Shown here: positions 39,359-46,221 of the stretch, one piece after another
How the letters are laid out: every line of letters begins with the position of its first letter
Numbering within the stretch: position 1 is the stretch's first letter
Source: Candidatus Bathyarchaeota archaeon
GTDB taxonomy: Archaea; Thermoproteota; Bathyarchaeia; Bathyarchaeales; DTEX01
Assembly (NCBI GenBank): GCA_018396635.1
Contig: JAGTQE010000001.1
Span: 1-64,000, forward strand
Reading direction: 5' to 3'
DNA: 64,000 bases
The notes under the pieces: model-generated
Database searches by the model: none
The model's input: only the letters and a program-made list of their open reading frames with translations
What the model was told of the DNA's origin: nothing
Made by a program: the position numbers and the translations under genes

Positions 39359-41770
39359 ATGGTGAAGCCCGTGACCAAGTGCCGCTTCTGGCTATTAGAT
39401 GTAAATTATGAAGTGAAAGATCATCAGCCTGAGATCTGGCTTTGGGGTATTGACGAGCAAGGAAGAAGGATCTTAGTAATAGATAGAGGGTTTCCAGCAT
39501 ATTTTTACGTTTTGCCTGAATCTGGCGAAGATGTTGTAAGAGTAGCTGAGCGAATAAAGGCGGCTAAGACAATTCTACCATTTTTCCTCAACCTCGAAGT
39601 TGTTGATCGCCGGTTTTTCGGGAAGCCTATCAAAGCCATAAGAGTTTATTTTCAAGATCCAGAATTGATTCCAGAATATGTAAAAAATATTTCCAAGATT
39701 AAGGGTGTTGAGAGCTGCCTAGAGGATGATATAAGGTATTCAATGCGCTACCTTATAGACAATGAGATTGTTCCCTGCGGCTGGCATGAAGTTGAGGCAG
39801 AGGAGATCCCTAATACTATGGGCATTCAGGCTGAGAAAATCTTTTTAGCAGCGTCCAGACCCAAGCATCTTCCAGAGATAATAAAGACGCCTGATTTAAG
39901 GATAATGAGTTTCTCAATAGTATCCTATAGTAAGAAGGGTTCTCCGAAGCCTGAAAAGAACCCAGTAATAATAATTTCTATAGCGACGAATACTGGTGAA
40001 GAGAAGCAGTTTGTTGCCGAATCATCAAATGATGATAGTGGGATAATTGGCGATTTCATTAAATATGTGAGGGATTTTGACCCAGACATAATTGTTGGTT
40101 TTGAAAGCAATCGGAAGGATATACCATATCTAATAGCTAGGGCGAAAAAGAACGGTTTAACCCTAAAGATAGATAGGGCTAATACCGAGCCGCATACGAG
40201 CACTTATGGTCACATGTCTATAACCGGTAGAGCAAATGTAGATATATTTGATTATGTAGACGAGTTCCCGGAGGTTAAGGTGAAGACTTTAGAAAATATA
40301 TCTGATTATCTAGGCGTCATGAGGATTAGCGAAAGAACTGTGATCGAGGATTTCGAAGTCGCCCAATACTGGGAAGATGAGAATAAAAGGCCGCTACTCT
40401 TAAAGTTTTCGATGGAAAATGCCAAATGCCTAATGGGGATAATGGAACGCATAATTGACTTCGCCATTCAGCTCTCAAGTCTCGTTGGCCTACCCCTAGA
40501 TCACGTTGGCACTGCAGCGGTAGGCTTTAGGGTGGAATGGTTCTTGATACGTCACGCTTATCATATAGGCGAATTGATTCCGAAGAGGGTTGAAAGACCA
40601 TATATTCCCTATGCTGGCGCAATAGTTCTAGAGCCTAAACCCGGAATCCATGAGAATATTGCAGTCTTAGATTTTAAGTCTATGTATCCTAGTATAATGA
40701 TAGCTTTTAACGTTTCGCCCGACACTTACGTGTCTCCCGGAGAACCCGAACCACCCGCAGGGGTTTATGTGGCACCGGAAGTTAACCATAAATTTAGAAA
40801 AGAGCCACATGGCTTCTATCGCGAAGTTCTATTGAAACTTATTGAGGCTAGGGATCAGATTAGAGAAGACCTTAAGAAAATCAATCCGAAGAGTCCTGAG
40901 TATAAGATACTTGATGCAAGACAAAAGGCAATTAAAGTGATCGCAAACGCAACCTATGGTTATGCTGGCTGGATAGGTGCAAGATGGTATCTTAAGCCAG
41001 TTGCCGAGGCGGTCACAGCCTGGGGCAGACACACCATTATGAGTACAATAAAGATGGCAAAGAGCCTTGGACTGGATGTAGTCTATGGCGACACTGATAG
41101 CATATTTGTGAAAAATGATCTTGAGAAGATTGATAAATTATCTAAGATGGTTCAGGAGAATCTAGGCTTAGAAATTAAGCCCGATAAAATATATGTACGC
41201 ATACTCTTTACTGAGGCAAAGAAACGCTACTGTGGACTAATGCCAGACGGTAGGCTCGATATGGTTGGTTTGGAGGTTGTTAGAGGGGATTGGGCTAATG
41301 TTGCCAAAGAGATACAAGAGAAGGTTCTGGAAATAATATTGAAGGAGCAGTCAATCAAGAGGGCTACGGAATATGTGCGCAACTACATAACGAGTTTGAG
41401 GGAGAAGAAGATTCCATTTAAAGATTTGATAATATGGAAGACTTTAACAAAGCCTATTGATGAGTATGAAGTCAAAACCCCGCATGTTGAGGCAGCTAAA
41501 CTGCTCCTGAAAGAGGGCTGGACGCTGGATGTCGGTGATAAAGTTGGCTTCGTTATAACGCTAGGCTCGGGTAAACTTTATGAGCGGGCCAAGCCATATA
41601 TCTTGGCTTCATACGACGACATCGACATCGAATACTATGTAACCAACCAAGTTATTCCGGCGGCGCTAAGAATATTGGCGCTCTTTAACGTTAAGGAAAG
41701 CGATTTATTGCCATCGAAAGCATTTAAATCACAGACTCTCTTCGATTTTCTGGGAAAAAGTAGAGCATAG
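39359..41770 (+). CDS. polB: Family-B DNA polymerase; polymerase motifs intact, exonuclease motifs substituted
   Basis: DFKSMYPSIM, KVIANATYGYAG, YGDTDSIFV present; expected exo motifs read FSIV and FSMEN. Confidence 0.93.
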   Translation: MVKPVTKCRFWLLDVNYEVKDHQPEIWLWGIDEQGRRILVIDRGFPAYFYVLPESGEDVVRVAERIKAAKTILPFFLNLEVVDRRFFGKPIKAIRVYFQDPELIPEYVKNISKIKGVESCLEDDIRYSMRYLIDNEIVPCGWHEVEAEEIPNTMGIQAEKIFLAASRPKHLPEIIKTPDLRIMSFSIVSYSKKGSPKPEKNPVIIISIATNTGEEKQFVAESSNDDSGIIGDFIKYVRDFDPDIIVGFESNRKDIPYLIARAKKNGLTLKIDRANTEPHTSTYGHMSITGRANVDIFDYVDEFPEVKVKTLENISDYLGVMRISERTVIEDFEVAQYWEDENKRPLLLKFSMENAKCLMGIMERIIDFAIQLSSLVGLPLDHVGTAAVGFRVEWFLIRHAYHIGELIPKRVERPYIPYAGAIVLEPKPGIHENIAVLDFKSMYPSIMIAFNVSPDTYVSPGEPEPPAGVYVAPEVNHKFRKEPHGFYREVLLKLIEARDQIREDLKKINPKSPEYKILDARQKAIKVIANATYGYAGWIGARWYLKPVAEAVTAWGRHTIMSTIKMAKSLGLDVVYGDTDSIFVKNDLEKIDKLSKMVQENLGLEIKPDKIYVRILFTEAKKRYCGLMPDGRLDMVGLEVVRGDWANVAKEIQEKVLEIILKEQSIKRATEYVRNYITSLREKKIPFKDLIIWKTLTKPIDEYEVKTPHVEAAKLLLKEGWTLDVGDKVGFVITLGSGKLYERAKPYILASYDDIDIEYYVTNQVIPAALRILALFNVKESDLLPSKAFKSQTLFDFLGKSRA

Positions 41771-41784
41771 AAAACGCAACATTA

Positions 41785-42939
41785 TCAGTCAAGTATATCG
41801 TCAAAGGTAAGTAGATTTACGCCCAGAGGCTGCTTAACGATCTCAGAGATACGCGCTGCTATGAGATATTTAATATTCTTGTCGCTTGCTATGTCAACAA
41901 GTCTTTGAGTTATTATCCCATCGAAAACTACCGTATTAACTCCCTCAATCTCCTTTAGTTTATCGGCGAGCTCGCTTACTGGGAGCCGCCCTATCTGCTC
42001 CATTTTCTCATTAAATAGCACGGCCTCAAAAGTTCCTCTTAAACTCTCAGCGACTTCAACAATCTCTTTAGGTACTAGCACCTTTTTTCTCTTCTTCCTC
42101 CGCTCAATTATCTCCCCAACAGGAACTTTATTCTGTAGGGCTACCTCAATCTCCCTTGCAGTTAAATCCTCAACCTCCTTACCCTTAGGAGCCCTGGCCA
42201 CATACTTTATATTTGCAACCTGCAGCAATTCTTTGAGGATTAAGTCGCCACCATGATCTCCATCGAGAAAGGCTGTTGCTTCCTTCTCCCTAGTTAACTT
42301 AATGATTGTTTCCGGTATCTTCACACCCTCTAAGGCTATAACGTTGTATATTCCATGCTTCACAAGATTTATTACATCAGCTCTCCCCTCAACAATTATT
42401 ATTTCCTTAGCTGAGTCGACTTCCGGGCCAGCTGGAAGCTTTTCAGGCCCATATTCTCTTATCTTCGGAGCCCTTAGTATTTCCGCAACCTCTCGAAATA
42501 TTTCTTCTGTCTCAGGCACCATCTCCAGACTCCATTTATGCAGTATCTCTTTTGCTCTCTCAATTATTGCTTTACGCTTAGTTTCTCTAACATCTTCAAT
42601 TCTTTCTAATAAGATATGGGCCGCGAATGGCCCAACCCTATCTATGCTCTCGATGCTCGCAGCGATGATAGCCGTTGAAACCTTATCTAGGCTTGTGGGT
42701 ATGATTATTGTTCCCATTGTTTTATTATCCTTTTGAGACGTGATTTCCACCTCTATCCTACCGATCCTTCCACTCTTCTGAAGTTCTCTTAAGTCGAGTT
42801 CAGCTCCAAAAAGCCCCTCGGTCTGCCCGAAGACTGCGCCGATAACATCAGGTTTCTCAACTAACCCATCAACCTCAAATTTAGCACGAATCACATATTT
42901 TATTGCAGGTAATGAGGAAGTCATAACATTCAACCTCAA
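41785..42939 (-). CDS. dnaG: Archaeal DnaG (Toprim primase-like)
   Basis: IIIVEGRADVINL; ATAFLDGDHGGDLILKEL. Confidence 0.94.
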   Translation of the reverse strand: MRLNVMTSSLPAIKYVIRAKFEVDGLVEKPDVIGAVFGQTEGLFGAELDLRELQKSGRIGRIEVEITSQKDNKTMGTIIIPTSLDKVSTAIIAASIESIDRVGPFAAHILLERIEDVRETKRKAIIERAKEILHKWSLEMVPETEEIFREVAEILRAPKIREYGPEKLPAGPEVDSAKEIIIVEGRADVINLVKHGIYNVIALEGVKIPETIIKLTREKEATAFLDGDHGGDLILKELLQVANIKYVARAPKGKEVEDLTAREIEVALQNKVPVGEIIERRKKRKKVLVPKEIVEVAESLRGTFEAVLFNEKMEQIGRLPVSELADKLKEIEGVNTVVFDGIITQRLVDIASDKNIKYLIAARISEIVKQPLGVNLLTFDDILD

Positions 42940-43069: not shown

Positions 43070-43501
43070 TTAATTCAAGAGGTTAATAGTCTCATTGCCT
43101 TCAACTTTCCTCTTCAATGTCCTAATATATGCGGCTAAACCCTCAATGTCTTTAACATCATTGTTGAGTATGCTATAAATTTCCTTCCAAAAACTTATAT
43201 CCACCTTGATTCTCGCCGCCTCAAGGGATTCTACTAGACGTTTGGTGAGCTCCTTACCCCGCCTATCAAAATCCATAAGTAGTATGATCTCTTTGCTTCC
43301 AGTGGAAATTATCTCATCTATAATGTCTGGAACGCTCTTACCAGACGATTTTACGGCTACGATATTACACGCAATTCCCATATCTCTGAGGGCCTTTATA
43401 TCCTTTTCACCCTCAACGACAAGCAGCGCATCTACGGAGATCTCGCTCTTCAGCCTCTCAATCACGTAGCTAATTTTCTCAAGCTTTCGCTCAAGACCCA
43501 A
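43070..43501 (-). CDS. Small stand-alone Toprim-domain protein
   Basis: LLVVEGEKDIKALRDMGI; LLMDFDRRGKELTKRL. Confidence 0.85.
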   Translation of the reverse strand: MGLERKLEKISYVIERLKSEISVDALLVVEGEKDIKALRDMGIACNIVAVKSSGKSVPDIIDEIISTGSKEIILLMDFDRRGKELTKRLVESLEAARIKVDISFWKEIYSILNNDVKDIEGLAAYIRTLKRKVEGNETINLLN

Positions 43502-44514: not shown

Positions 44515-46221
44515 ATGATCATTGGGTTAGAGAAGAGTCATATAAGAGCCTCTATTGAATCTTATCTAAGGAAGGAGATTCTTAACCCCTTCGCTATCCT
44601 ACTCTATGGTCCACATGCGGGCGGGTATGCTGATGAAGAAGTGGCAATTAATGCTCTTTCAATAGTAGAGTCAAGTAAACCTATCCTAAAATATTATGTT
44701 AAGCGCTTCAATTCCATTAGAGTTCGCCTTCTAATAGCTGATAAGCAAACATTCGAAGGAGACGTAGAAAAAGAGCAGTTGGGCGGCATGCTCGCTGAGA
44801 TTTTAGTAACACCCTATGAGCCGCTCTTAAATGGGAGCTACTTATGGGAGAAGGAGGTTGAGGTTAAAAAGAGAATCATTAATAATATTCTGAGAAACCT
44901 TATTCTAAGTTTTCCAGAGATGTCAAGAGTCTTTATTATTAAACCCGAATACTTTATGTTTGAGGCAATAAAAGAAAGGGCATTACTATTTCCATTAATA
45001 GTTTATAAGTTCCTTAATATATGTGGAAGAGAAGCGAGGGAAAGGAATTACTCTTTAATGATGCGCGGGTTTACAGAGGCTCTGAAAAGGCTCTTACATG
45101 AAGGAAAAATTAATGTTTTTGACGGCTTTTTTAGAATCTCCGAGGAGTACATTAATTCCGTACTGAAAGAGAGGATTGACTGGCATCTTAAGAAATTATT
45201 TAAAAGTGCACGGATAAGGATTATTCGCCATCTTATAAAAGTTCTTCCAGCAATTATAAATCCGCTTTTAGATGAATACAGAATCTACAGAAAGCATATA
45301 ACTAGATATGAGGGAGAAAGAAGGGCAGTGTTAAAGCTTGAGAACCCAAGAAAATACATTTTTATACCAACATCCCTTGGAATGATTCCTTTCACGGAAA
45401 AAACGTCAATAGATGAATTCCTCAAAAAATACATGTCTCAAAAATATATTTTAAAGCACGAGGTTAAAAGGTTAGGAGGGGTTCTTAATAGCGTATATCT
45501 CCTGAAGATTTTTGATGGTGAGAGGGAAGAAAAAATCGTTGTCAAAATATTTAAGGATTGGTATGGATGGAAATGGTTTCCGCTAGCATTATGGACTCTA
45601 GGGACAAAAGACTTCACCATCCTGGGAAGGAGCCGGCTTGAGAAAGAATACGCCATAAATACATTTTTGATGGAAAATGGGATAAATGTTCCGAGAATAA
45701 TTTACGTAGCCCCAGAAGAGAAGATACTTTTTCAAGAGTTTATAGAGGGGAACAGCTTATCTAGAATAATTAGGGCTCTGCTTAAGGATGAAGAAGATTC
45801 TGAAAGAAGATCCAAGCTAATCAAAATCGTTAAACAGGTTGGTGAAGAAATAGCAAAGGTCCATGGTCTAGGCGTATCAATAGGCGACTGTAAACCAGAG
45901 AACATGATATTATCTCCTGATGGAAGAATATTCTTTGTCGATCTTGAGCAAGCTGAGAGGGGCGGCGATCAATCTTGGGATATAGCCGAATTCCTGTACT
46001 ATCTTGGGCATTACGCTTCATTTTCAGGCTCTCAATGCGTTAAGGAAGCAGTAGGAGAATTTATACGTGGATATCTTGAAGCTAACGGAAGAATAGAGAC
46101 TATAAGGAGGGCGCTTTCGCCCCGCTACTTAAAAGTTTTTGGAATACTTTTACCCCCACATTTAATCCTCACGATTTCTAATGCTTGTAAAAGGATAATA
46201 GAATCCAGGGGAGTCACCTAA
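44515..46221 (+). CDS. Protein kinase-like (Bud32/RIO-like) protein with long N-terminal domain, possibly a degenerate nucleotidyltransferase
   Basis: C-terminus: HGLGVSIGDCKPENMILSPDGRIFFVDLEQAERGGDQSWDIAEFLYYLGHY; N-terminus: PFAILLYGPHAGGYADEEV. Confidence 0.75.
   Translation: MIIGLEKSHIRASIESYLRKEILNPFAILLYGPHAGGYADEEVAINALSIVESSKPILKYYVKRFNSIRVRLLIADKQTFEGDVEKEQLGGMLAEILVTPYEPLLNGSYLWEKEVEVKKRIINNILRNLILSFPEMSRVFIIKPEYFMFEAIKERALLFPLIVYKFLNICGREARERNYSLMMRGFTEALKRLLHEGKINVFDGFFRISEEYINSVLKERIDWHLKKLFKSARIRIIRHLIKVLPAIINPLLDEYRIYRKHITRYEGERRAVLKLENPRKYIFIPTSLGMIPFTEKTSIDEFLKKYMSQKYILKHEVKRLGGVLNSVYLLKIFDGEREEKIVVKIFKDWYGWKWFPLALWTLGTKDFTILGRSRLEKEYAINTFLMENGINVPRIIYVAPEEKILFQEFIEGNSLSRIIRALLKDEEDSERRSKLIKIVKQVGEEIAKVHGLGVSIGDCKPENMILSPDGRIFFVDLEQAERGGDQSWDIAEFLYYLGHYASFSGSQCVKEAVGEFIRGYLEANGRIETIRRALSPRYLKVFGILLPPHLILTISNACKRIIESRGVT

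Follow-up and report, generated by a model that had tools for sequence, protein, structure and literature searches.

A family-B3 DNA polymerase of Bathyarchaeia with an ancient loss of exonuclease signature residues

The polB3 gene of a bathyarchaeal genome encodes a family-B DNA polymerase in which four of the five exonuclease signature residues are gone and the polymerase motifs are intact. The loss is ancient and maintained, rather than a one-off oddity, since it is common to all relatives examined in the class Bathyarchaeia and to several neighbouring archaeal lineages. Judged from its sequence, the enzyme is probably an accessory polymerase without proofreading, in cells whose genome would be replicated by PolD and PolB1. 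The stretch of DNA analysed here, referred to as the window, is 64,000 nucleotides long (contig JAGTQE010000001.1, positions 1 to 64,000, of assembly GCA_018396635.1, Candidatus Bathyarchaeota archaeon).

Gene, Fold and Motifs

The features of the locus, in coordinates of the window, are as follows.

39359..41770, + strand: polB3, 803 aa, ATG start, exonuclease-inactivated family-B DNA polymerase; nearest solved relative 5mdn
39722..40279, + strand: 3′-5′ exonuclease domain (Pfam PF03104, residues 122–307); fold predicted to be kept, catalytic residues lost
39911..39922, + strand: degraded Exo I, FSIV in place of FDIE, residues 185–188
40100..40132, + strand: degraded Exo II, FESNRKDIPYL, residues 248–258, catalytic Asp D254 kept
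40406..40423, + strand: degraded Exo III, FSMENA, residues 350–355, Tyr to Phe and Asp to Asn
40670..40699, + strand: polymerase motif A, DFKSMYPSIM, residues 438–447, intact
40934..40969, + strand: polymerase motif B, KVIANATYGYAG, residues 526–537, intact
41084..41110, + strand: polymerase motif C, YGDTDSIFV, residues 576–584, intact
41732..41755, + strand: putative PCNA-binding-like tail, QTLFDFLG, residues 792–799, recognized from sequence; relatives within and beyond the genus have comparable tails
41785..42939, − strand: gene for a dnaG-type primase in convergent orientation to polB3, an ancestral neighbour unconnected with the exonuclease loss

Pfam recognizes both domains in the 803-aa open reading frame, with a full polymerase domain (DNA_pol_B, 233.8 bits) and an exonuclease domain that is still identifiable (DNA_pol_B_exo1, 85 bits). 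The best solved relative is an orthologous crenarchaeal PolB3, the PolB of Pyrobaculum calidifontis (5mdn), with 47% identity over the full length (phmmer, E 3e-243, query residues 9–799). An AlphaFold2 model of the polB3 product, built on a 58-sequence alignment, has a mean pLDDT of 91.1, and comparison of the model with the PDB once more ranks 5mdn first (TM 0.87/0.91). On the strength of these two results, the exonuclease domain, a region modelled with confidence, is predicted to be still folded. The QTLFDFLG tail is disordered in the model.

Alignment with 5mdn shows the extent of the damage. Exo I changes from LAFDIEVYN to MSFSIVSYS, placing S186 and V188 at the Asp and Glu of DxE, and Exo III changes from RYVLDDV to KFSMENA, with Tyr replaced by F350 and Asp by N354. 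Exo II reads GYNSNGFDWPYL in 5mdn and GFESNRKDIPYL in the bathyarchaeal protein, in which the catalytic Asp is retained as D254. These replacements leave only one of the five signature residues in place, just as the original prediction had read from the letters: Exo I without both acidic residues, Exo III without its Tyr and Asp, and Exo II retaining only its Asp. The alignment is gap-free around all three motifs, which rules out misalignment and leaves no alternative placement elsewhere for the DxE or the Tyr and Asp of Exo III. Engineered exonuclease-minus archaeal polymerases (D141A/E143A type), in which removal of the Exo I DxE abolishes proofreading, share this feature. Unlike these, the bathyarchaeal form is natural and ancient, and is altered in Exo II and Exo III as well.

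Both sequence and fold place the protein nearer to PolB3 enzymes than to PolB1 or PolB2, and in the tree a branch with support 100 lies between PolB3 and PolB1. With crenarchaeal PolB3 it shares intact polymerase motifs A, B and C and the convergent dnaG neighbour typical of TACK archaea. The crenarchaeal enzyme keeps DxE, the Exo II Asp and the Exo III Tyr and Asp, whereas the bathyarchaeal one keeps just the Exo II Asp. Because its exonuclease motifs, which are usual in PolB3 though not clade-defining, are not intact, the bathyarchaeal protein is a variant within the B3 group. NCBIfam returned general PolB models only for the PolB proteins tested. Named relatives, among them JZ_bin_23 with 74% identity, assign the window to Candidatus Bathyarchaeota. 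Rather than a divergent, inactivated paralogue, the gene is the PolB3 orthologue normally present in an entire lineage.

Archaeal PolB2 (Dpo2) is likewise a family-B polymerase without exonuclease residues that occurs beside exonuclease-proficient polymerases (PMC8764526). A PolB2-type paralogue is nevertheless ruled out by the sequence match, motif C and the PolB2 search: PolB2 enzymes form their own clade and have an altered motif C with one Asp (IVDS in loci L235, L238 and L239), in contrast to the canonical DTD and PolB3 placement of the bathyarchaeal protein. Partners reported for PolB2 are RadA-like/arCOG07300 (PMC4104785), whereas bathyarchaeal PolB3 lies beside dnaG and unrelated genes.

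Distribution of the Exonuclease Loss

A sample of 257 class genomes, together with 398 genomes representing the phylum and loci of named relatives, yielded 227 sequences of at least 450 aa, two of which are PolB1. None of the 104 readable Bathyarchaeia PolB3s keeps DxE or the Exo III Asp, and the Exo II Asp is kept in 77 of them. Counted over the five signature residues, 17 class sequences keep none, 80 keep one and seven keep two. No other acidic residue takes the place of the DxE or of the Exo III Asp, and the substitutes differ between families. With 104 class sequences and public metagenome-assembled genomes (MAGs) at hand, an assembly or single-genome artefact is ruled out. The polymerase residues K526, N530, Y533, D578 and D580 are conserved in every exonuclease-less (exo-less) sequence (132/132), as is D438 in all 131 that are readable at this position, which upholds the original assignment of intact motifs A, B and C.

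Beyond Bathyarchaeia, exo-less PolB3s are found in Brockarchaeota, Geothermarchaeota, Wolframiiraptor, one Nitrososphaeria MAG, Methanodesulfokora and several more families. All five residues are kept in the sampled Crenarchaeota, Nezhaarchaeota, Baldrarchaeota, Sifarchaeota and Euryarchaeota, except that a single archaeoglobal sequence has His in place of the Exo III Tyr.

The same collection contains some unusual family members. One PolB3 (L026, G036:C157:21305-25156) has an intein-like, in-frame insertion of ~500 aa immediately after motif B (KVITNATYGYC). Two relatives of the window's genome encode PolB1-like proteins of ~640 aa (L236 in G011 and L240 in G024) with intact polymerase motifs DFESLYPS and YGDTDS and no recognizable exonuclease motifs, so that Bathyarchaeia have a second, distinct type of PolB without exonuclease motifs.

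Origin and Selection

A quick tree of 119 sequences was built from alignment columns outside the exonuclease domain. Even without these columns, one clade (SH-aLRT 100) holds 62 of the 64 exo-less sequences, with members from Bathyarchaeia, Brockarchaeota, Geothermarchaeota, Wolframiiraptor and Methanodesulfokora, and it adjoins an exo-intact clade containing the Crenarchaeota. Two exo-less sequences, L136 (genome G464) and L141 (G439, labelled Candidatus Methanomethylicota B10_G16; the same sequence as L183), fall inside the exo-intact clade, so that the unconstrained tree implies two losses. A topology that unites all exo-less sequences is not rejected, however (AU test, p 0.52). The distribution is best explained by loss of the exonuclease active site in a deep ancestor, in one or two events. 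The two stray sequences are a possible second, independent loss, and L136 has an intermediate-looking state in which the DxE of Exo I is kept and Exo II and Exo III are lost.

Over eight exo-less pairs, dN/dS was 0.065–0.149 for the whole gene and 0.06–0.20 for the exonuclease domain. These low values indicate that polB3 is functional and, together with the invariant polymerase residues, rule out a pseudogene; the polymerase active site appears to be under strong purifying selection. For pairs whose polymerase distance is 0.25–0.55, the ratio of exonuclease to polymerase divergence is ~1.5 if they are exo-less versus 1.1–1.3 if they are exo-intact. Selection on the exonuclease domain is thus relaxed, yet the domain is far from neutral, and for this reason it has probably retained some function in structure or in DNA binding.

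DNA Polymerases of the Genome and Its Relatives

Polymerase content was judged by profile searches. The genome that contains the window (1.45 Mb, 99% complete) has two PolB genes, the second of which (L002, on contig C6) encodes a PolB1 whose exonuclease motifs are all intact (LDIEVYS, FNGDDFDLNYL and YCLNDAEL). PolD is also present, with DCDGDED in DP2 and an intact nuclease signature (DLH, GDVVDG, GNHD and GHVH) in DP1. The genome therefore has two polymerases whose proofreading motifs are intact plus one family-B polymerase without such motifs. This complement, along with the sequence itself and the class-wide loss, lends good support to the initial expectation that the PolB3 enzyme would synthesize DNA without intrinsic proofreading. 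The searches gave no match to Y-family or X-family polymerases in this genome, and the PolB2 query produced weak cross-matches only, none at PolB2 level. No PolY was detected in any searched genome of the window's genus, two of which (G002 and G003) have a PolB2-like gene.

Across the class, PolB3 is missing from 48 of 119 near-complete genomes and is therefore dispensable. PolY or PolB2 is present in 42 of the 48 genomes that lack PolB3 versus 42 of the 71 that bear it (all being draft genomes), with neither found in the other 29 PolB3-bearing genomes. Presence of PolB3 and presence of PolY are negatively associated (Fisher p 0.0006, from a manually compiled table and uncorrected for phylogeny). 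Six near-complete genomes are without PolB3, PolY and PolB2 alike, and a bypass polymerase is thus not strictly required. Genomes G025 and G102, from the same order as the window's genome and 98–99% complete, gave no PolB3, PolY or PolB2-level match.

Beyond the class, all near-complete families without a PolD match that were examined have an exo-intact PolB3. Two exo-less families (f47 and f62) also gave no PolD match, in genomes only 76–77% complete in which PolD was possibly missed. PolD and exo-intact PolB3 coexist in three families (f55, f60 and f64). The presence of PolD thus neither compels the loss nor suffices for it, and is at most permissive. One large family of the phylum sample, f29, gave no PolB3-level match.

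Probable Role

The most economical reading is a non-proofreading accessory polymerase. Following loss of the exonuclease site in a deep ancestor and maintenance of the polymerase site, PolB3 would polymerize DNA and be unable to proofread, while PolD (with its DP1 nuclease) and PolB1 would carry bulk replication and proofreading. Recruited via PCNA, PolB3 could then work where an exonuclease would be a hindrance. By analogy with known enzymes, its task is probably lesion bypass, the filling of gaps or extension from primer ends that are mismatched or damaged. The absence of proofreading residues is as expected from the sequence of a translesion or extender polymerase. In the window's genus, with no detectable Y-family polymerase and mostly no PolB2, PolB3 may be the main bypass enzyme.

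Eukaryotic Pol ζ and archaeal PolB2 are known for extension of mismatched or damaged ends, lesion bypass and gap filling. In Sulfolobus, the exo-less PolB2 is an efficient mismatch extender (PMC8764526), and deletion of polB2 plus polB3 gave the strongest damage sensitivity in S. acidocaldarius, indicating overlapping damage-tolerance roles (PMC7785828). Since PolB2 has high fidelity, a missing exonuclease need not mean an error-prone enzyme. Eukaryotic Pol α and Pol ζ are also reported to combine an intact family-B polymerase with an inactivated exonuclease domain (PMC7544198). This likeness is one of analogy only: they belong to a different clade and, unlike them, bathyarchaeal PolB3 has no C-terminal metal-binding module. 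The PolB3 loss parallels that in Pol α and Pol ζ and is presumably independent of it. A broader proposal, which we hold tentatively and at somewhat less than even odds, is that Bathyarchaeia and their Korarchaeia-, Brockarchaeota- and Nitrososphaeria-type relatives converted their PolB3 to a specialized polymerase without proofreading, an independent counterpart of Pol ζ or Pol α, in lineages in which PolD and PolB1 jointly took over proofread replication, and that it is the sole bypass-type polymerase in the window's genome.

Views differ on the function of archaeal PolB3, which is regarded as a replicase in some archaea and as a repair enzyme in others. The lineage-wide loss of proofreading serves as a natural experiment on how PolB1, PolB3 and PolD share their work; among the near-complete genomes of the sample it is confined to lineages that also have PolD, and it predicts testable biochemistry, namely no exonuclease activity and extension of mismatches. 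B3 is described as a replicative or repair group in PMC4104785 and PMC7544198, the available portions of which mention no exo-less B3 branches. No description of an exo-less PolB3 was found in the main texts of open papers on Bathyarchaeota, Korarchaeota and Aigarchaeota, and the branch is apparently undescribed, although an earlier mention may exist in supplements or closed papers.

Alternative Roles and the dnaG Neighbourhood

The conserved neighbour of polB3 is a primase-type gene, dnaG, and no damage-response neighbour or operon partner of polB3 was found. The convergent pair, with a short gap, occurs in Bathyarchaeia and exo-intact Crenarchaeota alike, and is reported for crenarchaea in PMC4104785. 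Its presence in both clades supports vertical inheritance of the same locus, an old shared arrangement. The original prediction had singled out the dnaG adjacency as deserving attention in connection with the exonuclease loss; the pair is equally present beside exo-intact genes, so it is no evidence for a special role, and a functional tie to dnaG through the loss is rejected.

This bears on an unlikely alternative, a Pol α-like role in which exo-less PolB3 would extend the product of primase by an initial stretch of DNA before PolD or PolB1 takes over. Missing proofreading would be tolerated in such a stretch if it were short or later replaced. The inactivated exonuclease domain reported for Pol α (PMC7544198), the primase-type neighbour and the putative PCNA-binding-like tail would all fit such a role. 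However, exo-intact PolB3 genes are linked to dnaG just as strongly, the two genes are convergent and form no operon, and the absence of PolB3 from 48 near-complete class genomes is unexpected for a core replication step. To our knowledge, moreover, archaeal DnaG has not been established as a replicative primase.

Somewhat less probable still is proofreading in trans, whereby PolB3 would be a high-fidelity replicative or repair polymerase and have its errors removed by DP1 of PolD or by a free 3′-5′ exonuclease. The fully conserved polymerase domain, the intact DP1 motifs and the retention of the exonuclease domain as a constrained unit, predicted to be folded, are consistent with it, but a partner nuclease is without support and many relatives with PolD and PolB1 do without PolB3.

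An exonuclease that is still active with non-canonical residues is highly improbable: its domain is under purifying selection and the Exo II Asp persists in 77 of 104 sequences, but the DxE and the Exo III Asp are absent with no acidic substitutes and with family-specific replacements, and removal of DxE alone is the standard route to exonuclease-minus archaeal polymerases. Just as remote is a decaying polB3 without present function, a view in line with its repeated absence from near-complete class genomes, the missing match in f29 and its reported absence from Thaumarchaeota (PMC4104785), but at odds with the catalytic residues conserved in every exo-less sequence, dN/dS far below 1 and an ancient clade.

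Two other genes lie near the pair. One, in window 44515–46221 (+ strand), encodes a protein whose N-terminal half is without assignment and whose C-terminal domain is RIO/Kdo-kinase-like. The other, next to dnaG in window 43070–43501 (− strand), encodes a small stand-alone Toprim protein and is conserved in position in many Bathyarchaeia.
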